A DNA stretch of 64,000 bases from assembly GCA_963971425.1 (NCBI GenBank), contig OZ020514.1:15195218-15259217 (forward strand), written 5' to 3'. Each line of letters opens with the position of its first letter. Within the stretch, counting starts at the first letter, position 1. Below the pieces are notes generated by a model. It was not told where the DNA came from. It searched no databases and worked only from the letters and a program-made list of their open reading frames with translations. This DNA is from Bryoerythrophyllum caledonicum (lineage: Eukaryota > Streptophyta > Bryopsida > Pottiales > Pottiaceae). Below are positions 17,840 to 64,000 of the stretch, one piece after another. A program made the translations under genes and the position numbers.

Positions 17840-17967
17840 AAGACTTTATTTTCTTTCCTTCTTTTATTTTTATTTTTATTTATTTTTCTCTTTTTTCTTT
17901 TTTTCTTTCCTTCTTTTGTTCTTTCTTTCATTTTTTTGTTCTTTCGTTCCTCCTTTCCGTCTTTCCT

Positions 17968-25761: not shown

Positions 25762-25776
25762 GTGAAACGGCTTACT

Positions 25777-27096: not shown

Positions 27097-27117
27097 TTGT
27101 GGGACTCCGTTTCCACA

Positions 27118-30100
27118 TGTTGCCGGAAGATAACTTTAAATCCGGTTAAAACAAAAAAATTAGTTAAGTAGTTATGGTAGTTTCTACTAGAATTCATCCT
27201 ATAGTCGTCAGAAAAGAATAATGGCGGATGGATCAGGTTGCGAACACTAATTAAGCCAAAATCTGTTAAAATCGGAACCGGAGCAGTTACCGGATTTCCG
27301 GGGCGGACAGTTATTCGGAACCGTCAGCCGGAACTATCGCCATCAACTGTCATCATGACTCCGTACTAACTGCCGGACTACTTAAGGTTGGGATTCGGGG
27401 GGAGAACTCTTTCTTCTCCATTCCTTTGTCGCGTGCAGGGTTTTCGTCTTCAGGCTTTCTTCCTCTCCCTCTTTCACTTCCTCGCTCTCGGTTTCTAATC
27501 TCTGGCCGTTAGGGTTTGAAGCTTAGATGGTTAGAACGGACGTGCGTCCGTTAGGGAGTGCTTTTGTGAGAACGGTGCGTGCAGGGACTACCTTGAGAGA
27601 CGGTGAGGATTTAGGAGGTCATGAAGATTGTACCGATGGCTAAGAAGAAGAGGACGGATAGAGACGGGCGCGGCAAAAGAGACGAAGAGCCGGCCGCGGG
27701 ACTTCCCCCTTTGGCCCGAGTCCTTCCGGACATCCCCGAAGACCTAGACGAATTCAACCTCCTGAAGTCGAGCCTGAAGACTATGGGGTGCGAAGGGTTG
27801 CTCGAAGTCCCCTGGGGTATGCGGGAGGAGATCTACGTCCAGGAGCTTATCGGCGCTCCGGACAAGAAGTACCAGGGGTTACTGAGAGCCCATCCGGAAA
27901 ACTGGGGAGTTCCGGAATGGTCGCAGGCGTACGACTTCCGGGGCGGACGCACCAAAGTGGTGGAACGACGAGACGAATTCCTGGTGGACGAGTTTGCGAG
28001 TCCGGCTAACCCAAAGGACGGCTACAACATGCAGGACCTTCGGCATCTGGACGCCCAGCTCGTGCTAGAGTTTTTAAACCCTATTTTCCATCCGGAAAAG
28101 CCGAAGCGGGTGGTGGCGAAGTGGGCCTGCACCTTCCTCAGGGCACTCCAGAAGAAGATAGTGGTGGATTGGGGAACGCTTATGACGGACATGATCAACC
28201 GTCTAGTAGCCAACCTCCAGAGGGTGAAGAAGACGGCAACACCCTTGGCCTCCTATGTGGTGCACCTCTATGCGCACCACCAGCAACTCACTACGGCGGA
28301 AGTCCGGAAGTACGATATCGTCCTCAACTTCCAGAAGTACGGAGGGGACGAGTCTGAAGAGGAAGAATCCGGAGAGGGGGAGCCAGCGCCGGAAGCAGCC
28401 ACCACCAGCACTCCGGAGGGTCGGAAGGCCCCAAAGAGACCTCGGGGGAAGGAACCTGCGACGGAGAGTCCGGGCATCCGAAGCTCCTCTGCATCATCCG
28501 GAGAAGACGAGTCTGGATCCTCAGAAGGGACCAGCCGGAAGAAGAGAAAGGTGGACCGGGACGACTCCAAGGGTCAGCTCAAGCTGATGGATGAGCTCAC
28601 CCGCGACATTGGCTGGAGGGTTGGGCTCCTCAAGGAGACCAACTACATCATCATTAGCAGCGTGGAGCAAATCTTCCGGAGTCTGGGCGTCGAACGGCTG
28701 GAGGACGCCATTAACCGGGTGGAGGAACTCCAGAGCCGGGAGGTGGGCACGAAGGCGCTGCACACTCAGATCGCTTCTCTATACAAGGCAAGTAACGATA
28801 TGGAGAGGAAGATGAAGCAGTATCTAGCGGAGGCGGCTGTGGCGGTGACGGCCCGGAAACTGGCCGAGGAGAAGGCCAACGCTTCCGCAGCGGCTTTACT
28901 GGAAGTCCGGGCCTTCTTGGACCTACCTGTCCACGTGGTCAACCGAAGCCGGCTCTTCACCGAGCTGGTGGAGAAGAAGGAGAAGGTCACCCGGGCCAAC
29001 ATCATCCGGTTCCTCCTTGACCAGGCTGACAAGATGGGAAGGACCTGGGAGTAGATGAAGGTGCTAGTCGACAACATTATCGTCGAATTTCCGGAAGAAC
29101 CTGCAGCGCGTGGACCGGAAGACACGCCGACCACAACTCGAACAACAGCCACTCCGGAACCACCGCCCAAGACCACCCCAACGCCGGGAACCTCCGCGAA
29201 CCCGGAGTCCCTGGATACTCCGCCACGGACACCGACGGAGGGGATCGTGCCCCCTAATCCGAGTACCAGCGAGATCCTGAAGACACTTCCGGATCTCCTG
29301 TCGCCACCCACTATGAGGCTTCCAGATCCTCCGACAGAGGGCGGCCTTCCAGCTCCTCCAAGGTCAGTGTCACGAAGGTTAGCATCCGGAGCCAGGAGTC
29401 TGTCCGGAAGCTACAGGGACTTGGTCCAAGACACCGGGTCAGTTTCCGCGGCAGGCACCCCAGCACCTCCGCTTCCGGAAGGATCTCCGGCCCAGCCCCC
29501 TCTACCCCCGAACGCCCGGACTCCAGTGGTGGCTGTTCCCTCACCAACCGGCCCAGCCAACAGAAAGACCAACCTTTCGCCGGCGGCTTCAAAGAAGGAT
29601 AAGGCGCGCATTCCGGTGGAGAGTTCCCCCTCCCGCCGGAGTGGGAGAAATCGGGGTCCCGGTGCTCCTACTTAGGGTAAAAATAGGTTGTAAGTTTGTT
29701 TTTGTTTACCTCTTTTTCTCAGGGTAAGAGCCCGGATCAGCAGCGACTAACGATGGGGCCCCAAGTGCACCCGGCTGCTACCGGAATCAATAGCCAGGTT
29801 TTGTTAGAGAAGGAAGTCCGGAGTCCAGGAACTGTTCCGAGATTTTAGGATCTGAGATCCGATCTGGGACTTTCCCGGATTTCTCGGATCTTTTAGATAA
29901 GATCTAGCGGACTTCCCATAGTCATAGGTAGAAGGAAATCTGAATTTAGGGAATTCAGAAAGTATTTAGTAGGAGGTTTTGGGAAAAAACCTTCGTCTTG
30001 TTCATTTCACTTGGAAATATACGTTACCATTTTCTTCACCACATTTGCTACCTTGTGTTTGCGTGGGACGTATGAATCCTGTGAGTGACGGATCCTTTCT

Positions 30101-42549: not shown

Positions 42550-43698
42550 TCAAGTTACATACGTTTTTAATCTATATCCATTATATCGTGTGGCATGGAC
42601 ATTGCCCGCAAAATCTTGTAATTCTACGGAACCATTGGGATAAGACTTAAGAATGCGATATGGACCAAACCACCTCATCTTAAATTTACCCGGAAATTTT
42701 TGAAATCTACTATCGTAGAGTAGTACTAAATCATTATCTTTTAAAACTTTGGGTTGTAATTTGCTATCGTAGTAAGTTTTACGTTGTTTTTGAATGGCTT
42801 CCATATTCGTAAAGGCTTGAGCCCTTATTTCATCAAGCCTTTCTAAAGTGTCAAATCTCTCTTTTAAGGATGCAACATTTCCTAGTCTCTCAGAGATTGC
42901 GACACGTAGTGAAGGTACTTCCACTTCGATTGGTAACATAGCTTCTAATCCATAGACTAATTGGAAAGGAGTTGCTTTAGTTGTGGTTTTTATGGTACAC
43001 CTATATGCCCATAATGCGTTGTTTAACTCATAATCCCAATTAGATGCGTTACCTTCTAGTGTTTTAGTGATGATCTTACAAAGTATGCCATTAGATTTTT
43101 CGGTTTGACCATTTGCTCTAGGATGATAAGGTGATGATTTTCTATGCTTGATAAAATAGTTTTTTAACATTTTTTCTATAGTATCATTAATGAAATGAGT
43201 CCCTCTATCACTTACTATTTCTTTGGGACATCCAAATCTAGTGATGATATTCTCATAGATGAATTTAGCTACGGTATTTGCATCATCTGTTTTAGTTGCA
43301 ATTGCCTCAACCCACTTAGTCACATACTCTGTGGCAACTAAAATATAACGTTTTTGTCCTTCTCGACTAGGAGGTTTAATGGGTCCCACAAAATCTATCC
43401 CCCACTTCTCAAAGGGAATCTGTGCTAAGATCGGATTTAAGGGCATTGCTTTAGTGGCAGTTGGTTTACCGACACGTTGACAAGGATCGCATTTTCGTAC
43501 ATAACTAGTGGCATCTGCAAAAAGTGTAGGCCACCAATAGCCAGCCCTTAACACTTTTTGTGCAGTTGCCCATCCCGCAAAATGTCCCCCACATGCATCA
43601 CTATGACATCCTTTTAATATCATTTCAATTTCACTAGGATTTATGCAACGTCTTAAGACATCATCTTTACCCCTTTTATAAAGAACTCCACTAATCAT
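42550..43698 (-). mobile_element. 19.7-kb element: integrase part
   Basis: Zinc-binding HSDACGGHF and CDPCQRVG; catalytic core with WGIDFVGPIKP, IVSDRGTHFINDTIEKM and HPRANGQTEKSNGI supplying D, D and E; and a C-terminal GPYRILKSYPNGSVELQDF then YRLKTY block typical of Tat/Athila integrases. No chromodomain. Confidence 0.93.
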
Positions 43699-43794
43699 GG
43701 TGTATGGTAAAGATTGATGAACTAACTTAGTCTTATCTTTACTTACATACTCTAGTGGAAATGTTCCTTTAGTTAAATAATAAATGATATCCGC

Positions 43795-44703
43795 TTATTC
43801 CTTAGGAATAACATCAACCACATCAATGCCGTCTTGAACGGAAAAGAGGTGTGCATCCGGAAAACTATCATCAATGGATTCTGGATTTATAGTTTCACTA
43901 AGTCGTGATAAAAAATCTGCATTTTGATGTATTTTCCCAGGTCTTACATTAATAGTAAAATCAAACTCTTGTAACAACAAAACCCACCGTGCAATCCGAC
44001 CACTTAGTTGAGGCTTATTGATCATGTACTTTAAAGCATCATGATCAATGTGAAAGGTAAATTTATATTCCAACAAGTAATGTCTATACTTTTGAACAGA
44101 AAAGATCATGCCAAGACCTTCTCGTTCTGTCACGGAATAATTCCTCTCTGCAGCACTCAATTGTCGACTTGCAAAGTAAATTGGCCTATCATGACCTTTA
44201 GAATTTTTCTGACTTAAGACACTTCCAATCGCTACATTGGAAGCATCAACATACACTTCAAAAGGTCTGGACCAATTTGGTGGAATTAGAATGGATGCTT
44301 TACTAAGACGGCGTTTTAACTTGTTAAAAGCTTTAGTACAATCGTCTGTCCATACTCCTGGTGTTAAAGTTTGTTTTGTTAAAGCATTCAAAGGTGCGGC
44401 TATAAATGCAAATTTATAAATGAACCGTCTATAATAACCCGTTGCACCCAAAAATCCTTTAAGTGCGGTTAAATGCTCAGGTATTTCCATTTGTATAATA
44501 ATGGCTACTTTATCAGGGTCAACTGCGATTCCCTTTATGGATACTATATGACCTAATAATCTACCCCACGCAGTGACAAACTCCGATTTAGCAGCATTTA
44601 TGGAGATACCATATTCACGACAACTATCAAAACATTGTTTTAAAGCCGCTGGGTGATCCTTCTTTGACCCAAACACACAAAAGTCATCTAAAAATATTTC
44701 CAT
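43795..44703 (-). mobile_element. 19.7-kb element: RT end and RNase H part
   Basis: It starts with the RT active-site block MEIFLDDFCVFGSKKDH (FLDD), followed by GLLGHIVSIKG-like and KGFLGATGYYRRFI thumb motifs. RNase H follows with VYVDASNVAIGSVLSQ, ERNYSVTEREGLGMI and FHIDHDALKYMINKPQLSGR. Confidence 0.92.
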
Positions 44704-44709
44704 AAATTT

Positions 44710-47700
44710 TCATAAATATTTTGTAAATGCTTGTGTCATGACCCTTTGGAATGTAGCTGGAGCATTGCACAATCCGAAGGGCATGACATTATATGTGAAA
44801 GTTCCCCAGTCAGTTGTAAAAGTAGTTAAGGGTCTATCTTCTGGGGCTATTTGAACTTGATTATACCCCGAAAATCCATCTAAAAATGAATAGCACTCAT
44901 GTCCCGCAACACCATCTAAAACGGCATCCGAAAATGGCAAAGGAAAGTAATCTTTTTTAGTTGCTTTGTTAAGTTGCCGAAAATCTTGGCAAATACGAAT
45001 TTTACCATTCTTTTTTGGGACAATTACTATAGGTGACACCCACTCACTAAATGGAACTGGATAAATAAAATTACATTCGAGCAACTTATCTATCTCTTCC
45101 TTAACCATTAAAGAATATTTTGGATTCATGCTATATTGTCTCTGTCTAACCGGTTTAGCATCTGCTTCTAAAATGATTTTGTGCTGACAAACATCTGGAG
45201 GTATGCCTTTAAGATCTTTATAAGTCCATGCAAAGGCATCCTTCTCTTTTTTAAAGAATTCATGCCATTCATCATACTCTTGAGGACTTAACCTATCGTA
45301 GACTTTAATGGGCTTAGGATCTTCTTTAGTGCCTAAGTTCATTTCCATGGTATTTTTTATTAAAGGACGTACACTAGGTATTTTCTTGTCCCCTATTAAT
45401 TCCTCAGAATCTGATATATATGGAGGTTCATTATCAGATTCTTTCTCGATAGCAACATTAAAAACTGGTGCATTTTGCCATGCCTCAATGGCAGCATCCG
45501 AGTCATCCACTTGACTTGGAGGGACAAAATATTTTCCAGGACTTAAACTTTTAAACGTAGGCATGTCCTGGACAATATTAGTGTCCTCAAGTTCAGATTC
45601 AGAATTTGGATCAGTGGTCCAATCTGAATCCTCATCCTGAGTCTCACCATGATAGGTTGTAGGAAACATAGGAAGAATAATTTTACTATTACCCTTTCCG
45701 ATAGTTAAAGTCCCTTTACCCCAATCGTCCTTGGCTTTGGCTAATGACAACCAAGGTCTGCCAAGAAAGATAGGATACGTAGAAATGGACTCACTCACTT
45801 TCAAGACAATGTAGTTTATTTTATAATCAATGCCACCAATTATTGTATTTAATTGTATCAATTTGCCCAAGGGTTTAACTCTACTTTGATCGGCCATTCT
45901 TAAAATAATGGGGGTAGGTACTATGTTAGTTATACCCAACTCTTCCATAGTGTCAACATTCATTAAGTTAACACTACTTCCACTATCTATCTGTACTCCA
46001 TCAATCAAAGTTCCATCTATAAGCACATCAACTGTAGGTGCTCCCGGATCTAAAGAAATATCATGGACATTTACAACTTCAGGTTGAGTTTTACTTGCCT
46101 CACTTCGTATTTTTGCCTTAGGATTTTTAACATTACTCTCTTCAATTGTTTTAGCTCTCTTACGAATTAATGAGGATGTTAATTCATTTTTGCAATAGGG
46201 TGATAAAGCAAGTAATTGTCTCAATGATATTTGAGGTTGTAACCTATCCAAATCTGTGAGTATATCATAAGGGTTCATTCCTACAGCTAACTTCATGATT
46301 CTATTATGTTTTCTCTTTTTTAAAGACAATGATGGTTCTTTAACTATTTTCTTTGATGGTCTATAAAAAGTAGGTTGCTCTAATGGTTTCATAGAAGTAC
46401 TTGGTTTTTCTACAATTGGAGGTTGAGGTACTTCTTTAACTGGTATAGGAATTTGTACAGATTTTGCTTGAGAGTCACTACTAGTTATTTCAATTATTTG
46501 AGGTGATGGTTTAAGCACCTCATGTCTCTTAAGTATAATTGATACATCTCTACCCACTATCGGTTTGGTTTTTATTTTTCTATAGTCACTTTCAGAGCTA
46601 CTAATTGGTTCTTTTTCTAAAGCTTTTCTTGCTTGTGATCTAGTAATAAAAACATCATGTGGTTCTACTATTGCCATGTAATTAACATTTCTAGAATTAG
46701 ACGACTCTACTTCTTGTATTTGTATTTTTTTCCTTACATTGGGAAATTCTGTGATAATAGCAGGACAATAGGTAGACACATGACCAGGTTGACCACATCG
46801 ACCACAAATTGGATTATATCCAACTTGTTGTTGAGGATTGGGACATTCCCTAGAATAATGCCCAGGCTCTCCGCATCTATAACATACTAGTCCCTTATTC
46901 TGATTTTGATTAGGACCTTTCCAGGTTTGATGTTGACTATAATTGTTATTCCCTCTAGGATTTCTATTGTCTCCAGACCTTGTAAAAGGTTGTTTAGACG
47001 TGACGCGATAGGGCGGTTTTTGGTTATTAGAAGGTTGATCTTGGACTAGAGCTTTGACTTCTTTTATATTTCTACAAGTAGTAATATCATGTCCCTTTGC
47101 CCCACAATAAGCACATTTAAGATAAGGTGCACTATTTATAGGATATCTACACTCAGTTGTTAAATTTCCATGACCTTTGCAATTACTACACCATATATTA
47201 GTTCTTTGGTTAGTAGCTTTAGGTCTTTTATTTCTACCCTCATTAATTTGCACTGACAATTCCTTAAATTGTTTTTGTAATGCCTTCAATTCAGATTCTT
47301 TACTACTGGGAGGAGGCATTAACGCTAATGGTTGCGTCGTAGTAGGTGTAGTTCCTATACTTAAAGGCGGTTCATTAAGTATTGCTTTAGGGTAGTAATC
47401 ACTACCACGATTATCCATTCCAATTTGATTAGGAATATTTAAAAGATAGGGATCATGGTATTGAGGATTATTTTGTAACATATTGGATCGCTGCATAGCA
47501 GCTTCCCAATTTCGTGCAGCTTCATAAGCTTCATTTAAAGTTGCAGGATTGGATAGTTTTACTTGATAGATACACATAGGTTCTAACAATCCCCTAGTAA
47601 AAGTATTAACAATCCAAGGTTCAGGCATTCCATGATCACGCCATCGGTTTAACAAATTCCTAAGACGAGTATAATACCCTGCGATGGTCTCTGTAGGGTA

Positions 47701-48393
47701 CATTTGAAAACTCTGTAATTGGTCTTGCAAAGTATTGTGGTACGCTTGCGGTCTAAACCTAGCTAAAAATGCATCTTTTAAAGCATCCCAATTAGCAGGT
47801 TTAGGATTTAAAGCAACATACCATCTTTGAGCTTCCCCTACTAGATTTCCAGGGAAACTAGTTATGTATTTATCAACAGGTAAGTCATTTGCCATAGCAA
47901 CCACCTGAAATCTCTCCAAATATGAGTCTGGGTCTTCTCCTAAGTCACCATAAAATATGGGAAAATGAGCTATATTTAACATTCTATGATGTGCCATATT
48001 AACAAAATTATTTCTAACTGCTTTAGGAGTAGGAGGGGTTGAAGGTGATGAACTCTCGGTAGAACTTGAGGAAGATGAAAAAGTTGGAGAACTAGTAGAA
48101 AAAGGAAGTAATCTACGAGGTGGGGACCATCTAGATGACTCCGACGATGATGATGATTTGTTTTCTTCTTCCTTTCTACTACTACTATTACTAGCACTTC
48201 CTCTCAAGGTACTACGGAGTTTTAAGTCTTCATATGGAACTCTATTTTCTAAGTTTCTAGGAGAAGGTGTAACATTAAAGATGGGATTGATAGTTAAGAA
48301 TCTGAGTCCTTCCCACCTTTCTGCCCTTCTTCTATAACGTTCCGCTCGTGCTAATTTTTGTTCTTCTACTTTTCCTTTTCCCTTAGCTGACAT
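44710..48393 (-). mobile_element. 19.7-kb element: gag, protease and RT start
   Basis: About 1,227 codons. Residues 1-120 are Ser-rich. The Ty3-type gag domain follows, with FYGDLGEDPDSYLERF and WDALKDAFLARFRPQ. Four zinc knuckles come next: CSNCKGHGNLTTEC, CAYCGAKGHDITTC, CYRCGEPGHYSREC and CGRCGQPGHVSTYC. A linker leads to a retropepsin with IDSGSSVNLMN and FLGRPWLSL. The RT opens with FAWTYKDLKGI, SPIVIVPKK, FLDGFSGYNQV and MPFGLCNAPATFQ. The gag packages RNA and the protease cleaves the polyprotein. Four knuckles are more than the usual one or two for plant Ty3 gag. Confidence 0.93.
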
Positions 48394-48451
48394 TGACAGT
48401 TGCCATATGTAAAAGGATCTCTAACTCTCTTAAGCTAAAAAATCACTTATG

Positions 48452-50433: not shown

Positions 50434-50968
50434 TGTAAACCGTAAATTTACACTCACACAAAACACCCAAGACTCACACAAGTTTCCATATGATTCTAAA
50501 TTCTTCCCGGGATGGTCTGGCGTCTAATGTTTAAGTAATTTTGATCTAATTATCACATAAAAATGTTTTCTATAATAAACTTAAAGCTATAATGCATCCT
50601 TTTAAAGGTTTATGGGTTAAACAATCTACACTCTTAAAGGATTGAGAATTTTTATGTTACCCCAAGAAAAAGAGTGATTGTGACAAGAGCCTTGCTCTTG
50701 TCTTTCTTGTGTGTGTGCTCAAACCTCTAACTATGCCTTGCTAGGCGAATGGAGTTTATCCATTCCTTAACTCATTGCTTTGTTCGTTTATTAATTCTAC
50801 TTTATAATTGAAAAGCTTACTTCATGCAATTCGCTCCATCTTTAATCACGTACGTCCACGGCTAATCTCTTAAGTTCCAAGTGGATTCCACATCAAAACA
50901 CATTAACTTCAACAATCACACTTGTTAGAAGTTTAGGAATGATCATTTTTGAGATCAATACTCTAACA
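50434..50968 (-). repeat. 5' LTR of the 19.7-kb element
   Basis: 535 bp, TG...CA, 99.25% identical by eye to 31,313-31,847. The promoter of the element should lie here. Confidence 0.95.
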
Positions 50969-51490
50969 TGCCCAATTCAACTATTTCTGGACTATGAGGT
51001 GAATTCTGGACTAAGGACTAAAAGAAAGATCCGGAGATGTGCCTCATAAATGAGAGTGAAGCGTAAAAGCCGAGGAGTTTCGAGTACTTTTCAAGCATTA
51101 AATGCATCACCAATGACACTTATGAAGGAAGAAATGGCTAGAGCGACCAAATTTGAATTTAGACAATACGTGAGTCCGGAACATGCAGCCGGATATCTCC
51201 GGGTGAAAATCAAAGTGGAAACCTGAAGAAGAACCGAGTCCTGAAGACAGAAATTAATGGACATACTGTACATCACAAATGTGTGGTTGGGAAACATGTG
51301 GTAGGAAAAAATGGGATAGAGATGCGGACAGAAATTACTCGCAATTGATAGAACATGCAACCGGATATCTCCGGATGAAATCAGAGTAAGAGTCCAGTAC
51401 TAAACTGTTTCATTATAAGAAAGTGTCATACAAAATATGAAGGGTAGCCGTTGATAAGAGGCGCGTGTAATCTACGGAGAATCGAATCAA
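50969..51490. other. Flank with degenerate palindromes
   Basis: No gene is seen. Variant CCGGATATCTCCGG copies lie at 51,189-51,202 and 51,361-51,374, each inside a repeated GAACATGCA(G/A)CCGGATATC context. A half copy lies at 51,031. Confidence 0.6.
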
Positions 51491-52156
51491 CTATTCTAAT
51501 TTTAGTGCTTTACAGATGCCCTCTACCCGTCCTGTATGGTGTCTCCCATATGTTAGATAATGAACTATAGCCTTTCTAGGATTCTTGAATGGATCTAGAT
51601 CTGCAACAACAACAGATTTAGGCCACAAATAATGCCTTGTTCTAGGATTAAATGAGGCCTTCTTAAAGATGTGGAGAAACCTAACATAGCTGGGCCTTCG
51701 AGTCTGCTTGCTGGCATAGCAAAAAAGAATATCTGATAAGATGTCTGGGGGCAATAACACTTGGGCCGCCTCCATGAGCCTCTCTGGACGCATAGGAGAC
51801 CAGATCCCGACATTGAAATACCGCAGTAGTATTCGAATAACATCTGCGGTGTCATCAAAGGAAGGCAGCTGCGCGGATCGGGACTTGGCCGAGTCAAGGA
51901 CCTCGTCCGAGCAGAGAGGACCACGGAGAGATATGATTATGACCTGCGAAATAGATGGCACGACCATAGAATTAGAAATTGAACATTGAAAAGACGAGAA
52001 AATATGGTAGGAGGAACTGAAGTCACATCCTGGACCGGAGATCTCCGGGTGCCCCTCCCAGACCAACGTTCTGCAGTGGAAATGGTCAGGAGAATACTCA
52101 ATAGAGTTCATAGATATTAAGGGTGAAGTTTGGGGGCGAGACACCAACAATAACAA
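51491..52156 (-). pseudogene. Second FCP1/HAD-like gene, partial
   Basis: The supported exon runs from an acceptor near 51,950 (TATTTCGCAG) to the stop at 51,491; sequence up to 52,156 is probably intron. It reads VIIISLRGPLCSDEVLDS, YFNVGIWSPMRPERLMEAA, DILFCYASKQTRRP and PKSVVVADLDPFKNPRKAIV. These follow the order of the HAD domain ending the next gene (DLNGVLV, VSFWSSVLEKN, PKDVLLVDDTPLKN). The aspartate nucleophile position is not kept (ISLRG instead of DLNG/DLDG), so it should not be a phosphatase. It may be a decayed duplicate or a diverged regulatory paralogue. The 5' exons are not identified. One exact CCGGAGATCTCCGG lies in its intron at 52,035. Confidence 0.55.
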
Positions 52157-55100
52157 ATAAAATGAAGGACCTCAACAAATAACGTTTCTGACAAGAACAT
52201 TTGTCTTCAAAATTGAAAGGTCAAAATCCGACAGACATTCATGACGAAACATTTACAAAGCATAGAGTTAATACTATCCAGTATATTTCATTGTTCTAAG
52301 GCGCCGAAATTATGCCCATCACCACGGAGCGAGCCTGAGTGGAATTTTTGTCTACTGGATCACTGGCAAACTTCAATTGATTCCGTCTAACAAAGTCGGG
52401 AACATCCTCATTTGACGCTAGTAGTCCGGAGAGCCATGGGAGAAACATGGTGGTCAACCAGGCTTCACCCGTATTCCCAGTCCATGATGGCGGATGAACT
52501 GCGCTGAAGGGATTGTTAAGGATGTTCTTTAGTGGGGTATCGTCCACAAGCAAGACATCCTTAGGAGATGTGGGCGACGCTTTGCTATTATAAACTGTCA
52601 GGTCCTTTAGGAAAATTGGCTTCTTTGGCTGAGATGGAAGCATATATGATGTTTTTGTGCAATCGGCCTGTGTCAGGATTTTGGCGCCTTCCGGAATGGT
52701 AGCACCTTTCTTGCGCAACTCCTTGATGATATCCACAATATTCTTTTCCAGTACACTGCTCCAGAATGAGACAGTAGCCTTCTCTCCCACGAAGTTCAGG
52801 ATTTCAGTGGAACCCGGCCTTACTTTGATGTCTCTCGGTTGTCCCTGTTTAAATTCCCCCCTGTGCACAAGAACTCCATTTAAGTCAAACACGACATGAT
52901 AAACCCGTTGTTGTGTTACATGATCCTCGATTGGAGGCTCTCGGACGATCGTCGTAAACTTCTTCAGACCTGAACCCAAAATACGAGTACGTCGGCTGAG
53001 ATGAGGAACTTGTACAGCTTAGAAAAATTGCAAAGATACATATAAAAGTGTTCCGCACTCAGAACCCAGAAATGCTGGATGAAAGAATGAGCACTATATA
53101 GATGATGGCACGTAAGTATGAATGTCCATATTAGGCACCTGGGACAGTAGGTGTAGTATCCCTAGAAGTCTGAGCTACACCAGCGACTTCAGCAGTCTGT
53201 GCGAGGCTTCTGCCACCGACATCCTTCGACTGTGTTGATCCAGCCGACACCTGAATACCAGTAATGTAGTGGTAAGAACACGGTCTGCAGAGAGTGCACT
53301 GTCTTGAGAACAATCAAGAAGGTTTGATGGACAAGTAACTGTTCACCTTATCTTTCTGGGCCCTTGTCCGAACTGTAGGCGGAGGAGGAGGAACTTTCGG
53401 CACAGGATTCTTCGCGATTGCCTTCTTCTTCTCTTTCTGAGCCAGCTGCCCGTGGCTCCGTGGAGGGCTGCGCGGAGGGCTCATAACCTGTAATTCACGC
53501 AATGTTTGTTGCACCGATGCCTCATCCATCAAGTGATCAGTGTCACGCAAAGTCAGGTCCTCGGCAGTCTTGGACACAACCTCCACTTCAGGACGCGTCG
53601 TGGAAGGGTTGTCCAGCGGGAGATCTCCGGGTGCTCTGTGGGTGTGGTCGAACTCCAGGCGATCGGACATTGCCGTGTCATCGTCCAGATCTGGCGGAGG
53701 AGAACTTTGCCTATCGGAATGCGAACTGGTTTCCATTTGAGAGGGACGCCGTCTACCGTCCAGAGTAGAGTCGCTTGTTGAACTAGGCGAGGCACGCCTG
53801 ACAGCAGGATGTGGTTCATCAACGTTTACCTGCAATGGGTAGATTGGGGTGCCTACACCGATGATCCGAGCGGCTGTAGCCAAGGAATCCAGTCTAAAAT
53901 TGGGAACCGCTGATGAACTTGGTTCATTCCGCACATCAACATCAAGCATCGTGGCATCAGTCGTCTGCGTCACATTGACGAAGTCAGTGTGGAATACATT
54001 AAGATGCAATACGAAATAAAACGGTATCATACACCCGGAGATCTCCGGTTCAAAGTTGTCCGAGTCTACCGGGGGAACTAAAAATAAACATGGCAATGAT
54101 AAAGACGAGTCCAAAAGAATGGAGGGCATCCGAATGGAATGAACATCCGGAGATCTCCGGGTCGGGTAGTATCCGTAGGCGTTATACCTCGCCGGTGTAA
54201 TTCATCCTCGACATAGCCCGTGTTTGAACACCAGCGCCTTGGGTCGACCCAGTGATGTCAGTCTCCAGTAACTCCTCAGGATCGGCGTCGGTAACGTCAG
54301 CTAAGATATTCAAGTGGAATTTGAATATTTGTTCTGCGCAGGATTCGGCATTTACTTTGGCATCTTCGCTGTTCACAATCTCGAGGACCCGCGCGTCGTG
54401 AGTCTGCAAACCAAAAAAAAATTAGGACGGCGATATCCAATTCATATAACTGTATGCGGACCGGAAATCTTAGACATTGGATTGCTTGGGAAGGATGTCT
54501 TGCTTACCAAGCCGAGGTATGTAATATGTGGTCCTCCATGAACATTGACGACCACCATACCCTCTCTGATGTATCCCGTGAACAGCGAATCCATGACCGA
54601 GATCCTCAGCTGTGGGACACCGGTTTGCTTCCAGCGCTGGATGGTTTCTTTATGTTGAGCGGCTGAAAAGAAGGCCGGCATTCTTTCGGGGTGGCCTTTG
54701 AAGAGCCTCTTGAATGACTGAGCAGGCGTCTCGCTTGAATCGTATTCATACAGGAATACGCAGTATACTGTCTCCTCGACCCCAATTACTGGAACCGGAA
54801 ATCCATCACCAGGGTGGGGGAAGTAGTAGACGACATGCGTTGCCCACAATTTTACCTTGCCTCTGGACTCTCTCTGCCGAAGACTGATGTACCTCTTTAA
54901 TTCAACGAATCCTAAGACGTCAGTGATAAGAACCGACGGTGATCTGATCCTCGTCCGCCCGTCCTTCGTGTCCACTTCGAGATGGTCGAAAATGGTTCTG
55001 AAGTCAAACACATCTAGCACCTGTGCACGGCATATGTCGTCTTTAACGCTGTAAAGGAAAAAGAAGTAAAAGTGAGGGTCAGTGACGTTACGCCACTGCT

Positions 55101-57753
55101 GAATGTCTGGCATGATAAGTACTTCGGCGATCTTGCCCCCTCTGTCAGGCATAACCCTGCAGGTGTATTTGGAGTCGAACAGGGACGTATCATTCGTGGG
55201 TGTGGCCTCGGCAGCATCTTCAATGATGTGTTGACTCCAAATGGACACGAGGAAGTCTGGAGTGGGGTCGGTATCCTTGTTTATCGCCTTCAGTCGACCC
55301 TCAAGCCAAGCTTTACCCTTGGCAGAGTGATTAGCGGCGTCGACCCAGGACTCGAGCTGGACCCTTCCAATATTCCTCTCTTCGGCAAATGCGTCCCACT
55401 GCTCCTTTGTGTATGGGACGAAGTCAGCAGACTTCGAGGGAAGGGGGTGCGACTTGTATTTAAGCATCAGTTCATTCTTCATTGCACGGACTCTCTTCTC
55501 TCTGTTCGCCGCGTTTTCGAGAGTCTCCGCCTGCCCTTTCATAGTACCTTGGTTTGCCGCTTTGGAGGACTTCACACAGACCTTCTTCTCGAGCACTAAA
55601 TCCGCGAGGTAGTCTAGGTCTTCAGCGCGCATTTTGTAAAGAGGCTTGAAGTCGTTCTGCACCAGAGGTTTCCGCTTCAACTTAGCTGGGTCCCCCGTCT
55701 TCCCGTTGGAGTCTGGTAAGTCTCCAGCGACGAACAGCCTGTTGATTCGGATCCACTTCTGGACCACCGCATCATCCATCTCGAATAGAAGTAGGACCTT
55801 CGCGTCTTTGGGGTCTGTTTTACCGAGGTGTGTAAAAACCGTTGGCACCACTTGCCGTTGGAACGTCTGCAATGAAAACAGTTACAGGGTGTAAGCAGCC
55901 GGAGATCTCCGGATGATTGGTTTGGTTGCTGTGAGGATAGAGCACAGCCACGGAATAAAAAATATTTTCAGGTTGAGAATGTATATTTACCGAGAATGCG
56001 TCAGATTGAGGACGACCATACAGTTGGGGGGCTGGTTTACCGAACTCAAACCACTTCACTCTGCACGTCTGCAGCTGCTCAGTGAAACTCTGCTCCTTCC
56101 GCAAACCCGTCAGATCTTGGTTAAGAGCGCGCGAGAGCTGTAGCAGGGTCATGTCTTTGGGGTCCGGTTTTGTCCAAACCGGGATGATAGAGAAGTGGGA
56201 GATCTCTTCAAGCGTCCACGTTGCTGGCAATTCGTGTGACAGAACCTTGTGCGCCGCCACAGTATGCTGACCTCCGATAATGTAAAAGTGTGTTGAGTCC
56301 CTCAGGCAGTCCTCCTTCGTCGGCTTGGTCGCGAAAAACTCTACCTTACTTCCTTCAGGTTTCTTCTTCAGTGGCAGGACTCGAATGTGAATCTCAGGTG
56401 CCGTGGCCTTCGAAGACGCGCGAACTGCGTCGATAATTCCTTCAAGCCGTTCTTTCTGGATGCCCCTGTATACTAATCCTCCAGGGGGGGCCCGGTGCAG
56501 CTTATCGAAATGAACGAGCTTCACGACATCCTTTTTCGTGTCAGGGTCTTCTACTGTCAAAGGCTTATTATTGTGTATGTAAACGTTTTTGAACGCGTCG
56601 TCGAGTACCTTGCCAATTGCTTCCACTTCAGTCCGCTTCATTTTTGTGAGGTCAGCCTGTGTAAAGTTCAGGCACCTTTCGATTGCGAGGCCTGGCTCAT
56701 CGGCCTTTGCTTTCTTCCCCTTCTCCGCCCGCGATGAAGATCCTGGGGTCGAAGTCTTCAAGGTGGTCTTGCGTTTTCTTGCCAAGGTCGATGCTGGTGT
56801 CAGAGACAGATTGGGAGTTGCGTCTGGAACGGGCATTCGGGACTTCTCTTGTGCTTCAGCCATCCACTTCCACTGCTCATTCACGTACTCCGGATACCAC
56901 GTATCACCCGTTGGAGGGGCAAATAAAAAGTTCTCACTCAGGCAGGTCTCCACCATCTCATCCGAAATCTTAGATGATTCTAGGATCAAGCCGTATATAT
57001 GTGGCTCGGTGGAGGAGTCCACGTTCTCCTGGACGATGACGAGACTGACCTCATCATCAAGACCCTGCAACTCGAGAACCTGGAGACCAATGTCGGGGTG
57101 ACCCCGTTTGCCAATCCGAAGCTGAGGGACGAATTCCCAGGCACCGTCATGGGTTTTAATGAGCTTGATGCCCCACTGGGTTATGCTCTTTCGGCAATTG
57201 TATACGTAGCCGACATTGTGTATCCCTCTGTAGACAAACTCAGGGAGCCAATACTCTACAAATGCCCCAAGTTTACCGGGTCGACATTCAGTCGGAAGTG
57301 TGGTTGTCCACGAATCCCTGCAAGATGATTTTGAAAGAACAAGCAGGCAGTTTAGAATCGATGCAATTGTCTGGTCAATAACAAGAATCCGAAACAAAAT
57401 CACCTGACAAGTTCCTAGATATTGAAACCATGAATCGTGCTTCCAAATCTGTATCACAGTGCCAGCAGGGGACAGTACCCGGAGATCTCCGGCTGATTTG
57501 GGGAAGTCGAGTGCATCCGACAAGGAACGAATCCTGGCTGCTCTGACGGGTCTATGTCTGACCTGAACCGGAGATCTCCGGTTAATGACCCCTCAACGCG
57601 AATTTCCACTGTTTCGATACGTCCGGAGATCTCCGGCTACTTTCGAGAATAACTAACTCCTGTATAGGGTTAACATATTCATCTGATTGCTACATCATCC
57701 GGAGATCTCCGGCTGATTACTGGAACTCCGTATTTTCAGCCGGAGATCTCCGG
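52035..57753. repeat. CCGGAGATCTCCGG palindrome copies, left cluster
   Basis: Exact 14-bp copies at 52,035-52,048, 54,035-54,048, 54,147-54,160, 55,899-55,912, 57,479-57,492, 57,568-57,581, 57,623-57,636, 57,699-57,712 and 57,740-57,753, plus a one-mismatch copy at 53,617-53,630 inside coding sequence. Several lie in spliceosomal introns: one in 55,990-55,867 and two in 54,187-53,965. The 57,568 copy abuts a TTCAG acceptor. The core is the perfect palindrome with AGATCT at its centre. Flanking bases are mostly unrelated, apart from a frequent CT after the motif. Confidence 0.95.
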
Positions 57754-58748
57754 CAGAAGCACGTACGGCACTTCGAAGCACTAATCGGATCATATCAGGA
57801 CTCGAATATTTACATTCATTTACAGAGAGGTTTGACGTATAACTCTTGAAGTTTGACATACTTAAATACCAAGTTACATAATTGAGAACATAAATATATG
57901 TATCAAATGAGCTCACACAATTCTGTTATAACTCGACCTTACACACTAGAAGAAGAATCCGCTAATGTTTCGATGGAACGCCAAATTTGACGACTCTACA
58001 TGGATTAAACTATATACATTGAATGGAACCAGACTCGGCAGACTCAGTGAGGAACAGCACATTCAAACATTCATGGAATTCCAAAATCATTCGCATATTC
58101 ATGAATAGATATACAAATATGTTCACGGGACAACAAAAAACCAATCGACTATAGCCAAACAGACATCGGAATTCTAGTATGCATTTCTTGAGGTTTTTCA
58201 AAATCATTCAAGTGTTCGTCCACTCCGAAATAATAGAACTAATTCGGAACTCACTCAAAAAAAGGAACCCCACCTGGTCGCCCGGACTGAGCATAAACAG
58301 TTCAATTGTGTATACTTACCGGTTTCCATCCCACGCACTCTCATTCCACGTCCCTGCTCTAGTCGCCATTTCGCAATCTCCTCCAGTAACTGCTCTGGAT
58401 TAAAGCGTATATACAACTCTGCAGTACATAAGCATTCAACAACTCAGAACGACAAACTATACAATCTCTCAAATGCCCTAGAATGTATGGTCCAGTTCTG
58501 ACATACAGGAATTCGGTGGAACAAATTTCAACACTGCATAAATTGCTCAATTCCGGCCCTTCGAAACTGAATGCACAGAAAACTAGAACCCTAAACCCTA
58601 AACCCTTCTATTTCGCTCAAACGATTATCAACATCAGTACTATTCGACTCTCTCAAACCCTAATGAAGCTTACCGAACCCTACACCTGCTCCAGTGACGA
58701 TTCTATGAAGTCCAGTGCAAATTCAACTGAAATTTCACTGAAAGCCAT
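52296..58748 (-). CDS. Multi-exon gene: ParB-like domain plus C-terminal FCP1/HAD domain
   Basis: Proposed first exon 58,748-58,686 (MAFSEISVEFALDFIESSLEQ ending at CAG-GT), then 58,392-58,320 in the QLLEEIAKW frame. The N-terminal exons between 58.3 and 57.5 kb are unresolved. From 57.3 to 56.0 kb the protein has a Lys-rich linker and a ParB-like block: KLVHFDKLHRAP, the core FYIIGGQHTVAAHKVL near 56.28 kb, then LLQLSRALNQDLTG. An intron (55,990-55,867) leads to a long exon (55,866 to about 54,510). A further exon ends at 54,188, and an intron with two palindromes (54,187-53,965) precedes a Ser/Pro-rich exon. The last exon (about 52,975-52,296) is FCP1/SCP-like HAD: VVFDLNGVLVHRG, VSFWSSVLEKNIVDII and DVLLVDDTPLKN. 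DLNG in place of DLDG occurs in a plant HAD subfamily and should weaken phosphatase activity. The long open exons suggest an intact gene. Its role is unknown. Confidence 0.7.
58560..58680 (-). promoter_or_regulatory. Telo-box-like motif by the 5' end of the ParB/HAD gene
   Basis: CCCTAAACCCTAAACCC at about 58,590-58,608, with CAAACCCTAATG at 58,654, lies just inside the proposed first intron. Telo-boxes are common near plant transcription starts. Assignment to this gene is inference. Confidence 0.4.
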
Positions 58749-58899
58749 TTTTGAGACTTTACATACCTCTTCACTTGCCGAATCGGCGCACCCGTACGTC
58801 GTGGTCGTTCGTGTTGACGCCACCCTCAACCGCAACGTCGTTCACTCTTGGCTACTGAACCTAGGCGCTCTTCAAATTTCTTCCTAACGCATTCGCTCT

Positions 58900-59455
58900 C
58901 TTTCAATCCTACTCTCTGACCTTCATTCCATATCCAGTTAACAACCTCTCCACGGCACGCTCGATGTCCCTCACATAAATCAACACTCACCTCGCACACC
59001 AACGGCCTCTCACAGCGCATACAAAACTAACCTAATGCGTCGACGCCGACTCCGCAAACCAAGAAAGAAAACCCCTCCCGCCACTTCCGCTCACTACCTT
59101 CGACATTACGAAGACAAAAGCCAAAAAAATCAAGAAATGGTTCATTCTTGGAGTTCCCAAAACCCAAAGAGGACAAGCTGGACGACTCAAGGGTGTGACG
59201 GTTCATGATGACAGTGGGTGAAGTTAAAAATCAGCTGAAATGACGTACATGTACAACGTGTCCATTTCACAATCATGACATTGTCAATGTCGTGAGCATG
59301 CGTGAGAAGACGTATTGATACCCGGTTTTATGGGTATTAGATATGACTATAATAGATACTCGGGTTCACCGGGTATTAGAGTAATAATTATACTTGAATT
59401 TAAAACGACATTAGTGGAAAAGCTGAATCTCCCTTTCCGTTACTCTCCCTCCCTT
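58900..59455. other. Upstream stretch without a gene
   Basis: Probable promoter side of the minus-strand gene. GATACCCGGTTTTATGGGTATT and ACTCGGGTTCACCGGGTATT at 59,319-59,375 echo the TACCCGGGTA cluster at 23.4 kb. Confidence 0.45.
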
Positions 59456-60318
59456 CTTTCCCTCACTTGTTTTTCTTATTTTTGTTCTACTCTCCCCTCC
59501 TTCTCCATCTCCATCTCTTTTTTAATCTTGATTCTAATATTTTTTAGACTCCCCGTGATTTCAATAATTACACATTCTTAAATTAACTTACTACTCTAAA
59601 AAAATCCCTTACTCTCCCCCTCTTACTCTTCCTCTCTCTTACTCTCCCTCCCCATCTCTTTTTTACATTTGATTTTATTTTTAGATTCTCCTTATTACAT
59701 ATTCTAAAAATATAAACCACTCTAAAAGTAAATCCCTCAAGTCTTTCTCTCTCTTACTCTCCCTCCCTTACTCTCCCTCCTACATGTTTATTTATTTATT
59801 TTAGTTTTACTCTCCCCTCCTTCTCAATCTCCATCCTTAGTTAATAATATTGAACTATTGTAATAGTATTTTTTAACTATCCTATTCTTTCCCTCACTTG
59901 TTTTTCTTATTTTTGTTTTACTCTCCCCTCCTTCTCCATCTCCATCTCTTTTTTAATCTTGATTCTAATATTTTTTAGACTCCTCGTGATTTCAATACTT
60001 ACACATTCTATAATTAACTTACTACTCTAAAAGAATCCCTTACTCTCCCTATTTTACTCTTCCTCGCCCTTACTCTCCCTCCCCATCTCTTTTTTACATT
60101 TGATTTTCTTTTTAGATTCCCCTTATTACATATTCTAAAAATATAAACTACTCTAAAAATAAATCCCTCAAGTCTCTCCCTCCCTCCCTAACTCTCCCTC
60201 ATACTTGTTTATTTATTTATTTTAGTTTTACTCTCCCTATTTTATCTCAATCTCCATCCATAGTTAATAATATTGAACTATTGTAATAGTATTTTTTTTT
60301 CTATCCCATTCTATTACA
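59456..60318. repeat. Tandem duplication with a 431-bp period
   Basis: Two T/C-rich units start with CCCTCACTTGTTTTTCTTAT at about 59,460 and 59,891. They share landmarks throughout, including AATATTGAACTATTGTAATA at the end of each. Roughly 90% similar by eye. Confidence 0.9.
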
Positions 60319-60920
60319 TTATTCAAATTAATGCATAGGTTTCAAAGATATATTCATATTTTATGTAGATTGTTGTTACCTTTTTTCTTAAATACTTTGT
60401 GATATAAAAACTACATGAAAATGGTTGATTTAATGTGTTGCAAACCAAGAGCCAACTCCTAGTCATACTACTAAAATCATAATTTGCGCAGTAAACCACG
60501 GAGTGAACTATCACGTAGTCAACCATGCAGTGAACTACAAAAACGCTACAATCAACCGCGGTGTCAACAATATAGTGAACCATTCCACCTTTTACTTTTT
60601 AATACTTTTTAATATTATAAATACATAAAAATGGTTGGGCTAATGCATTGCAAAGCAAGCGCCAACAGCTAGTCTACTCTAAAATTAAATCCATTACCCT
60701 CCTTCTCTTCTTTATTCTCTCTCTAACTAAATTATAATGTATCAAATTAAATAGTTATTGTTCAATTCTCGCTAAATTTCCTTACACTCTATAGTATCCA
60801 GGTTTTTTTAAAAAGTTATGGTTATGGATAAACTTAAGGTTATAGTTCATAGTTATAAAATATTTTTAATTTATATATTTATAGGTGATATAAGCCCTCA
60901 ACCTTCATGAACTCAGACCC
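60319..60920. other. AT-rich stretch without a gene
   Basis: CAAACCAAGAGCCAAC and CAAAGCAAGCGCCAAC recur about 200 bp apart, and AACCACGGAGTGAACTA-like words repeat between them. No gene is seen. Confidence 0.5.
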
Positions 60921-60929
60921 CTCCACGGT

Positions 60930-61055
60930 GAACGGTGAACCCTGAATCCTTAACCCTAAACCCTAAAACCGTGAACTAGAAACCGTGAATCCTAAATCCT
61001 ACACCGTGAAAACCATGAACCCTAAACCCTAAACCCTAAACCCTAAAACCCTGAT
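60930..61055. repeat. Interstitial telomere-like tract
   Basis: Four CCCTAAA units at about 61,019-61,046 and two near 60,954, mixed with variants (CCGTGAA, TCCTAAA). This is the plant TTTAGGG telomere repeat in reverse orientation. Confidence 0.85.
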
Positions 61056-62100
61056 GCACAATCCAGCCTGAACACGGAAGCTGTACCCGAATTCATAGGA
61101 CCGGGTTGCTATACTTCTAAAAGCATCTGCTCAGTTATTTGTGCACGTTTCTTCTCAAGCATCTATATAACTTCTGTCGAACTAGGCAATATTGGAGATT
61201 ATTCTAATTGGTAACGAACGCCGATGTTCTACTTGAGTCTTGTATTGCCTGATGAACAATACTAGTAGGCAGCTGAGGGCCGTCTCCTTTCCTTGAGTAG
61301 GATATAATTTACTTAACAAAGGTGAGTACGAGAAGTCCTGTACGATTACATTTTACTGTGATTTAGTCTAAGACGTGATACGGCCCTAGTATATTCAAAG
61401 ATACATCATGGGGCATACTTCATCATCCGTTTTTCAAATTTGCAGCACTCTAGGAACTAGATGGTATCCTTACAATACGGTCATCCCATGAGTACGAGCC
61501 TTTCATTATCATGAGTGGAATGTGGCCTCGGTCGTGGGCATGTCGAAGAATGCGCACAATCATGATGGTGTACATCAGTTAGTTTGAAGGAGCATGCATG
61601 CCCAAGATTCGTTTCAAATTTGAGCGCCTGAATTTTCCCTCCACGAGGTGATGGAAAGGTGGATAAGAGTATCCTTCAACTCAGCTCTCCTCCTTTTTTG
61701 CTCAGGATGTTTGAGATACTAAGGGAGCTGAGCGAGTCAGTGACAGTGTTCGCTTGCGCGACATCGTGCTAGATAACTGTAGGGAAACGAATCGACATTA
61801 TTCCAGGAATGTTAAGTATGTTCCTTCGTATAATTCCGTATTCGCTGTCTGTCTGTGAGGATTGGTGATGATTGTGTTGCATTCTGTCCTCTGAGTCGAT
61901 CGGGAGCTCTCGAGTAGAGATTTTAAACTAATTCGTCTCCGAAGATACAGTCATAGCCCTGAAGTAGTAAATATATTCGACTCGAGTATATAGATGACGT
62001 AATTTCTTGGCGTGTGAATCCGAACTGTTAACCGGGTTATGCAACTGTATCACACCGCCATATCCGCGAATATTCCGTACGGCTGTTGATTCGATCAAGG
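61056..62100. other. Stretch without a recognised gene
   Basis: Probably the promoter and 5' leader of the plus-strand gene that follows. No exon could be assigned. Confidence 0.4.
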
Positions 62101-62113
62101 CCAAAAAACTCAA

Positions 62114-63840
62114 CCGGAGATCTCCGGCTGTTCATGCCGTGCTATCCTGGATTCTGCCAATCTCGCCCGGTAACCACGGTTTCACCTCTTGATTCCAGTG
62201 GCTGTCAGAATCATCGAAAGCAGGATTCCCGGAGATCTCCGGCTACTTCTGTTTTGTTCTCTCTCAAAATCAAACAAGAAGTCGTCGTTGTTGATCATTC
62301 TCCACTCTGCCGGAGATCTCCGGCTAGCCCAGCCGACGATACTGAAGTTGGTCATCCAGTTTGATTCTACATGCACACAATTTCTCATTGAGGACATCAG
62401 CCACCAACCGAGCATCCACCGATGCAGCACGGGATTATGTCTGACTCAGATTGGTGGGAGAGTGACTCGGAAGACCTTGCCATGGTCGCAGCTCAGTGCT
62501 CCGATTCTGGACATGTGAATTTCACGGAAGAAGATGATCCATCCCAGGAGTCTACAGGAAGATCGGAGGTCCTGTGGTCAGGAATGTCCGTGAACCTTAT
62601 GAGGCCAGGTTCAGGCGAAATTGGAGAAGCGTCCATTGTTGAGGTTCACCCCATGGGTCAATGGCTTGGAATTGACATACCAGTCGGATCTAGTGAGTTC
62701 GTATTACTTAGACCAACGGCCATATGCCCCGCGGCGGAAGAATTACCAGTCATTCCCTTGCAACGCGGATACGATTCACTTATTCACACACTCCGGCGGA
62801 CCGTTTTATGGAGAAGGGCGGATGTCATGATTCCAACCGGAGATCTCCGGTCCAACGAGTCCCCATTCGTACCACGAGAGCGATGGGTTGGACTTGAAGT
62901 GCAGCGGTTGGACGGAGATGGATTGGTGCTCTGCTTTGGGAGAATCATGGCCGCTTTCCCAGCAGACCATTTCCGAAGTGGATGTTTGGGAGAAGATAAT
63001 ATTGGTGTAACTGTCCTTGATGTTTTTGTGGGAGACGCGGAGAGAATTATGAGTCATGAGTCGTGGCCCATTCTTGAATGTTGTTTTCCTTCCGATCGTT
63101 CTTTGAAATGCACAATTGATCATTTCGCATCCCTGCCCTTACAACCAGATTCTGGCGCTCATTTGGGGGGTCGTGCGAAGGAGCCTTACCGCTTCATTTC
63201 CCGACAGCAAGACCTTAACAAGAAGGAATCCTTGTACACCAGGAGGACTACCGACGACGAAATTCGCAAAGTCAGCTCGGAAAGGTGCTGTCCCAAACGA
63301 TGTTGCCAGTATTTTCAACAATCCCAGACTCTTTCTGTTAGACAGAAATTCTATGACAAATCCTTTGAAGATAGAAAGGAGTATGCAATCTCAGTAGGTG
63401 GGCAGTTCCACTCCATTGATGGGGACCGGAAGAGAAAGTACGTCACGCTCTTGGGAACGGAGGTTTGCTCCGTTGCATGGTACACGATCCATGGAATTCG
63501 GAAGTCCACGTTTCACACGTACATCGCACATTTCAGTAGAGGAATCATTAATGCAACTCACGGTAACAAGGGCATCAAGCGCCCACGGCTTGCCACTATA
63601 CAGGCGATGGGCTCAATGACGTCGATTATTAATGACAACGCGGATCAAATGCCTCACCAAATGCGGAGTGTCGGGAATGGTCGGATTGACACTCTCAAGT
63701 ATCTTCCTGCGGGAAACAACTGGAAGCAAATTCGAGCCAGCGTCAATGATGTACGTTATCAGTCCTCGCATATTGCAATGGATTTGTATTCTCCTTGCTC
63801 CGTCGACCGATGTCCAAGTATCTTAACCGGAGATCTCCGG
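62114..63840. repeat. CCGGAGATCTCCGG palindrome copies, right cluster
   Basis: Exact copies at 62,114-62,127, 62,229-62,242, 62,310-62,323, 62,837-62,850 and 63,827-63,840. The first three precede the coding region, the fourth is read through in the open frame (as TGDLRS), and the last sits in an intron that ends with TTTTGCAG at 63,956. Four of the five are followed by CT. Confidence 0.95.
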
Positions 63841-64000
63841 CTGGGTCATCGTTGTTCTGCATTGACCTTCAATTGATTTACTCTGTTCTTCGCACCGTCT
63901 GTTGGATTGTACTTCTAAATTTTTCTTCTCACTAGGTTAATTTTTCATTTTGCAGACAAACGACTCCTACGGTCTCCCTCCAGTAAGTCAATCCACAGTT
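62422..64000 (+). CDS. Transposase-like protein, N-terminal part, runs off the window
   Basis: The open frame runs from about 62,422 to a probable donor at 63,749 (AATGAT-GTACGT). The next exon starts after TTTTGCAG at 63,957 and continues past the window. The N-terminal third is acidic (SDSDWWESDSED). Later motifs are ERCCPKRCCQYF, VRQKFYDKSFEDRKEY, LGTEVCSVAWYTIHGI, STFHTYIAHFSRG and a basic KGIKRPRLAT, with MPHQMRS after them. The order Cys cluster, G-x2-VC, GI, then T-x-HGN/K resembles large uncharacterised transposase-like proteins found in lower plants and other eukaryotes; a DDE core would lie downstream. ATG at 62,422 or 62,437 is the likely start, but upstream exons are possible. It is divergent from the ParB/HAD gene and shares its palindrome. 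Confidence 0.5.

Follow-up and report, generated by a model that had tools for sequence, protein, structure and literature searches.

The 64,000-nucleotide stretch of Bryoerythrophyllum caledonicum DNA considered here (the window, G000:C1:15195218-15259217) carries repeated copies of a perfect 14-bp palindrome, CCGGAGATCTCCGG. The window's palindromes sit in one 16.9-kb DNA transposon, and selection on the dyad of which CCGGAGATCTCCGG is the core is well supported by comparison of related copies. We propose that this element, which encodes a protein with the domain DUF7869, keeps the dyad at about 20 fixed places where a dimeric protein, most likely one encoded by the element itself, would recognise it. 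From the sequence comparisons described below we would put the probability of this proposal at about 0.6. In the literature searched we saw no report of the element and no mention of the 14-mer or of DUF7869.

The palindromes lie in one DNA transposon

As an earlier note on this DNA had recorded, CCGGAGATCTCCGG occurs 14 times exactly between 52035 and 63840 and nowhere else in the window; 100 dinucleotide-preserving shuffles contained no copy. Allowing up to two mismatches gives 17 window sites, the 14 exact copies and three one-mismatch variants (CCGGATATCTCCGG at 51189 and 51361, CGGGAGATCTCCGG at 53617). The end of the array at 63840 is that of the window's copies and not of the element, which continues for 3861 bp beyond the window with six further sites. 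Three of these are exact (window-equivalent 65986, 66193 and 66276) and three are variants (66382, 67484 and 67721).

The transposon occupies 50968-64000 of the window and has its right end at G000:C1:15263078, giving a total of 16,894 bp. Its bounds are the points where homology to two other copies, A and B, stops on both sides, and homology to copies C and D stops at the right end. Copy A matches the window's copy (W) in three long pieces at 97.9-98.6%. The element ends read ATGCCCAATTCAACTATTTCTGGACT and, on the opposite strand, ATGCTGTATTTAACTATTTCTGGACT; the terminal inverted repeat (TIR), ATGCnnnATTnAACTATTTCTGGACT, is 26 bp long with 22 matching positions, counted by eye. The three copies with both ends are flanked by 4-bp target site duplications (TSDs), TAAC in W, TAGG in A and ACAA in B. 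No TSD could be obtained from C, in which the first 73 bp of W are unmatched, or from D, which lacks the left part. TIR and TSD, the hallmarks of cut-and-paste transposition, are both present in the element.

Across the assembly (437,360,962 bp in 894 contigs) the 14-mer was counted 2718 times, compared with three for the reversed control. The earlier note had proposed such a count. The 50 distinct places listed all fall in four clusters on contig C1, the remaining 2668 being counted only, so that an even spread is possible among them. The clusters hold 16, 16, 7 and at least 11 sites, and the first reproduces the window spacings of 2000, 112, 1752, 1580, 89, 55, 76 and 41 bp and of 115, 81, 527 and 990 bp.

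Gene A (53358-58443, minus strand) is a predicted multi-exon gene with several GT-AG introns, its largest exons lying at 55991-57322 and about 54500-55868. Gene B (62425-64000, plus strand), which likely encodes the transposase, has exon 1 at 62425-63750 and an exon 2 that starts at about 63956, runs beyond the window and encodes DUF7869. The two CCGGATATCTCCGG variants (51189-51202 and 51361-51374, both plus strand) are subterminal. A palindrome at 52035-52048 is probably in an intron, placed by eye, near the 3′ end of the minus-strand gene or genes, and the CGGGAGATCTCCGG variant (53617-53630, plus strand) is in a predicted coding exon. Palindromes at 54035-54048 and 54147-54160 share one GT-AG intron of gene A, and that at 55899-55912 also lies in a GT-AG intron of this gene. 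Five copies (57479, 57568, 57623, 57699 and 57740) form a cluster at 57479-57753 in what, by eye, is the probable first intron of gene A, and three (62114, 62229 and 62310) form a cluster at 62114-62323 upstream of gene B. The last two are at 62837-62850, inside coding exon 1 of gene B, and at 63827-63840, in the GT-AG intron between its exons 1 and 2. A third open frame, small and acidic, lies at window-equivalent 66860-67294; it has no Pfam match and has three sites upstream, or four if a two-mismatch site is counted.

The earlier note had also placed copies in open coding frames. Among the 14 exact copies only that at 62837 lies in a coding exon, on exon bounds that we drew ourselves; the other open frames concerned are mostly intron read-through. 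Over the whole element, 2 of 23 sites (up to two mismatches) are in coding exons, which make up 8421 of 16,894 bp (p = 3.5e-5, with the same exon bounds and with sites treated as independent).

Conservation of a 20-bp dyad

Relatives of gene A were searched for in the genome with P0017, giving 107 scored matches. One relative, F2 (contig C12, with a 518-aa frame), retains the motif found in the window. In this lineage the 14-mer is the inner part of a dyad 20 bp long, CAnCCGGAGA/TCTCCGGnTG (CAnCCGGAGATCTCCGGnTG in full), and the half-site logo reads TCTCCGGnTG (46 halves from W, 38 from F2). The flanks, first described as mostly unrelated, are so beyond about 3 bp; nearer to the core T stands at +2 in 28 and G at +3 in 22 of the 34 half-flanks of the 14 exact sites and three variants. 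The divergence past about 3 bp excludes a longer repeat unit around every copy. The copies do belong to a longer dispersed repeat as a whole set, namely the transposon, and do not as single units. Positions 55891-55917 and the reverse of 57694-57720 are 96% complementary across 27 bp, which we leave as chance or shared origin.

Site numbers at up to two mismatches, with exact sites in brackets, are 23 (17) in W, 23 (16) in A, 22 (16) in B, 23 (12) in C, 11 (7) in the partial copy D and 19 (13) in the part of F2 that was read. Most site places are common to the element copies (18 site columns in a four-copy alignment), and lost sites have been altered in place. The CGGGAGATCTCCGG variant seen at 53617 is present in F2 as well. 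Copies B and C have one extra site in the cluster upstream of gene B, within a stretch missing from W and A.

The core has changed less than its surroundings. Counting aligned bases only, identity to W in the core and in the flanks (5-64 bp) is 237/238 and 1516/1566 for A, 233/238 and 1372/1557 for B, 230/238 and 1270/1494 for C, 111/112 and 778/815 for D, and 165/168 (98%) and 792/1010 (78%) for F2, which covers 12 of the 17 sites. Sites in W were picked as exact, which spares changes on the branch of W itself; since we estimate that this bias at most roughly halves core divergence, it fails to explain the 1.8% of the core against the 21.6% of the flanks in F2. Fully conserved 14-mers make up 15 of 17 sites in B against 34.5% of non-coding 14-mers, 11 of 17 against 27.7% in C, and 10 of 12 against 13.3% in F2. 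CpGs are retained in F2 at 23 of 24 positions in the cores and at 439 of 629 elsewhere. To explain identical cores amid differing flanks, the earlier note had suggested either selection on a binding site for a dimeric protein or a very small insertion or copying process. The first of these is supported by the greater conservation of the core, the conserved dyad flanks and a coordinated change of the arms at matching places in a distant relative (described below).

The element has two classes of site: internal sites in the perfect form and terminal sites that are a fixed, asymmetric, one-base variant. In W, CCGGATATCTCCGG forms the outermost pair at each end: the left pair stands 221 and 393 bp in from its end and the right pair 378 and 141 bp, that at 141 bp being inverted. 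Copy A has the terminal pairs as in W with one further change at 378, B has them at 221, 408, 379 and 141, and C also has them, its left distances being taken through alignment with W. Among the partial copies, D retains the pair at the right end, whereas F2 has that at the left end with one further change. Genome-wide, CCGGATATCTCCGG gave 663 matches (364 and 299 by strand) against 0 for the control. Among its first-listed places, pairs recur at a distance of 172 bp when the two sites share an orientation and of 237-238 bp when they face opposite ways, besides isolated sites and a small number of other spacings.

A changed motif in distant relatives and the alternatives

Two more distant relatives, F3 (contig C836) and F4 (contig C813), have gene A exons with 34-36% identity to that of the window. 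F4 also encodes gene B, with 50% identity in exon 1 and 56-69% in exon 2. The 20 kb taken from each contain no site of the window motif at up to two mismatches. They have a dyad of their own, CATCGTGAGA/TCTCACGATG (CATCGTGAGATCTCACGATG in full), in the same frame as that of the window. Within four mismatches of TCGTGAGATCTCACGA there are 23 sites in F3 and 31 in F4, a few of which may be chance matches; 20 shuffles of F3 had a mean of 0.85. The half-site logo of F3 and F4 is TCyCmCGATG (62 halves from F4, 46 from F3), with inner positions conditioned by the scan and outer positions free of that effect. Both logos share T-C-y-C..G..T-G: positions 1, 2, 4, 7, 9 and 10 agree, positions 5, 6 and 8 differ, and position 3 is T in the window lineage and T or C in F3 and F4.

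The changed dyads stand at matching places. The coding site of gene B at 62837 aligns to F4 position 16960, where a 16-bp F4 site starting at 16959 reads TCGGGAGATCCCCCGA in exactly the same register. The intron site at 63827 aligns to 17935, and F4 has a site at 17939; the F4 interval matching the intron of the 55899 site contains two sites, at 6517 and 6655. For the F4 clusters upstream of genes A and B, correspondence is by interpolation only. In the middle of the gene A region there is also a tandem array of sites at intervals of exactly 108 bp, four in F4 (L022:3666-3990) and four in F3 (L020:3411-3735).

Three other DUF7869 loci of the genome (L024, L025 and L026) contain no exact copy of the 14-mer. 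L025, on C1, has 22 matches, two of them overlapping, to a 20-bp pattern centred on CATATG. This repeat is in part a 60-bp tandem array, with a second array whose left half is variable, and it stops about 50 bp before the transposase frame. The array of GGTGTGGCATATGTCTCACC-like units at L025:55-2921 is upstream of a DUF7869 frame of 1074 aa. In L026 a different 20-bp palindrome is matched four times, once at six mismatches; the patterns at both loci were selected after viewing the same sequence. L024 has no repeated palindrome. Dyads may therefore be a feature of only some DUF7869 elements.

Several observations weigh against recognition by a dimeric protein of the element. Only 11 of 17 sites are exact in copy C, and the comparison takes in D and F2 only in part. 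The 20 kb of F3 yielded no gene B, and at the position of the coding site several of the protein relatives of gene B differ in their residues. Gene A has no known DNA-binding domain, with only sub-threshold matches in Pfam and NCBIfam, and structure models for parts of it are poor (mean pLDDT 42.0 and 42.8). In addition, unplaced contigs (C68-C836) carry every one of the 41 exact F3-type sites and of the 71 matches of a 1.5-kb F3 stretch, with none on C1-C15, so F3 and F4 may come from a co-sequenced organism. Because of this, the change of motif could also follow a different host.

This last point bears on the explanation that a host transcription or chromatin factor binds the sites and that the element has collected them, which we consider unlikely but worth weighing. 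Palindromic sites clustered in introns and upstream of genes would suit such a factor, no protein of the element stands out as the binder, and the elements in which the motif has changed may belong to a different host. However, the distant relative has another motif at matching places, L025 on a chromosome of the same genome has unrelated CATATG repeats and not the 14-mer, and all 50 listed places of the 14-mer are in element-shaped clusters. The comparison of the two lineages holds even if they have different hosts, but the host factor as an explanation of the motif change is weakened rather than excluded.

We give little credence to the sites being a nuclease target or a methylation mark (CCGG combines CG and CHG), with a role in excision, in the control of copy number or in silencing by the host, in place of recognition by a sequence-specific dimer. 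Core CpGs are indeed retained and palindromes suit nucleases, yet the other lineage drops CCGG and keeps the frame and centre of the dyad, and a methylation site leaves the conserved flanking TG unexplained.

A function in RNA, as short hairpins or splicing signals in element transcripts, appears less probable still, although several sites are intronic and the palindrome is self-complementary. In the 54 sites of F3 and F4, which are not fully independent since the two are homologous, left and right halves show no association at positions 3 (Fisher p 0.24) and 5 (p 1.0), the most variable inner positions, and a weak one at position 9 (p 0.077) that would favour a stem. Of the 31 sites in F4, only 3 have symmetry across 16 bp. 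Such independent variation of the two halves fits a dimer on DNA, unlike an RNA stem; moreover, the dyad centre is among the most constant parts, and sites are also subterminal.

A mobile or copied unit as small as 14-20 bp, inserting locally, would account for identical cores amid differing neighbourhoods but is very improbable: in none of the 18 site columns of the four-copy alignment have 14 bp been cleanly gained or lost, and at the coding site the alignment to F4 and to most protein relatives shows no change of length (P0008 and P0014 are longer).

Element proteins, known systems and implications

Exon 2 of gene B matches DUF7869 (PF25273) with E = 7.8e-46 and 156.5 bits, against a cut-off of 26. 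In W this exon has an in-frame stop that is absent from A and B, the copies compared. The DUF7869 protein is likely the transposase; a match of this candidate to DDE_Tnp_ISL3 is sub-threshold (E = 0.12). The domain gave 150 scored matches in the genome from 3605 first-look candidates, the listed ones all above the cut-off, and none of 14 control genomes was positive. Relatives among about 5.8 billion proteins number 14 for exon 1 of gene B and six for the gene A exon, and these (from the sources jgi, ena and lgn) are nameless or called "hypothetical protein". Among viral contigs, six stretches fit a pattern, none of them with a gene B relative, and no close palindrome pairs were found. A frame for an NIF-type phosphatase (52299-53018, minus strand; PF03031, E = 2.3e-13) is either a gene of its own or a 3′ part of gene A.

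Bacterial ParB and Noc act as dimers that read perfect 14-16-bp palindromes (parS and NBS) across a replicon, and their specificity shifts via a few half-site positions. In gene A the segment 55994-56584 (minus strand) has invariant residues around LHxAP...VYxG...IIGGQHTV...LNQD in seven aligned sequences, and by eye it is like ParB/DGQHR-type domains, without family support. The likeness to ParB, again by eye only, lies in the motif order LHRAPPG...IIGGQHT...LNQDL. We rejected gene A as a ParB protein, as six sequences gave no ParB family in Pfam and NCBIfam up to E = 10, a range in which HMMER filters drop most matches above about 0.1, and no sequence match in the PDB.

Between genes A and B, a pyrimidine-rich stretch at 59454-60297 contains two 300-bp copies, 431 bp apart and 94% alike; the number of these units appears to vary among element copies. 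Short telomere-like CCCTAAA runs occur inside the element at 58570-58670 and 60930-61055, and F3 (L020 and L021) is rich in them too. Such runs, together with the GT-AG introns, would be in keeping with a plant genome. Elsewhere in the window there are two Ty3-type retrotransposons on the minus strand. The first, of Ty3/gypsy type (24013-27135), has RNase H, integrase zinc and integrase core domains in the frame 24016-25776, and the adjoining frame 25777-27135 is reverse transcriptase-like by eye. The second (42550-48420) consists of three adjoining frames; two were scanned and have gag, zinc knuckle, reverse transcriptase and integrase domains.

VANDAL elements are Mutator-like elements (MULEs). 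The frames scanned in our element gave no Pfam match to a MULE transposase or to VANC. Two reports describe the motifs of the VANC anti-silencing proteins as filling introns, intergenic and terminal non-coding DNA of VANDAL21, as different in VANDAL6, as differing by at least two bases between related VANDAL families and as rare in other transposable elements (PMC5735166, PMC10398659). The first of these reports gives them as 8-9 bp long, dense, in the same orientation and often in tandem repeats, and its main text never uses the word palindrome (PMC5735166). Like VANDAL and VANC in Arabidopsis, the element in the window has a family-specific, mainly non-coding motif that is changed in a relative, albeit one that may belong to another organism. 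Unlike VANC motifs, its sites are single dispersed 20-bp dyads and not tandem arrays of 8-9 bp, and unlike VANDAL it has DUF7869 and a 4-bp TSD. VANC would be the closest working model, by analogy; that the element is itself a VANDAL is not shown.

In En/Spm (CACTA) the element-encoded TnpA binds repeated subterminal sites of the same element, for transposition and promoter control; CACTA elements have CACTA ends and a 3-bp TSD. Our element, in contrast, ends in ATGC with a TSD of 4 bp, and its sites extend across its whole length, with the perfect form internal and the variant terminal. Sola elements have a 4-bp TSD, and we know of no motif arrays of this kind in them. A 4-bp TSD and TIRs in a plant liken the window's element to Sola1. 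Sola1 DNA transposons are reported from Physcomitrella (PMC9033089).

Because the change of motif is lineage-specific, the dimeric protein that we propose is most likely element-encoded. The candidates would be the product of gene A or the N-terminal part of gene B. Binding at the internal perfect dyads may mark the element as self, may control its genes and, by analogy with VANC motifs, may shield its non-coding DNA from silencing. The asymmetric terminal variants would serve assembly of the transposition complex. Taken further, and only tentatively, the sites could amount to an address code in two tiers. In one, a dimer encoded by the element would read the roughly 17 perfect dyads of its interior as the self mark for gene control and anti-silencing; in the other, the four end variants would serve transposition. 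Such a code would change from family to family by mainly one dinucleotide per half-site, even in coding sequence. If this were true, each family would answer only to its own protein.

The finding bears on how one protein finds only one long mobile element and how its specificity can change when dozens of sites must change together, a question that to our knowledge is known chiefly from VANDAL. DUF7869, a Pfam domain of unknown function, gains a likely context in a large transposon. The perfect dyads number in the thousands, the code exists in two natural states within one framework and the ends have a class of their own, so that binding specificity and co-change become directly testable.

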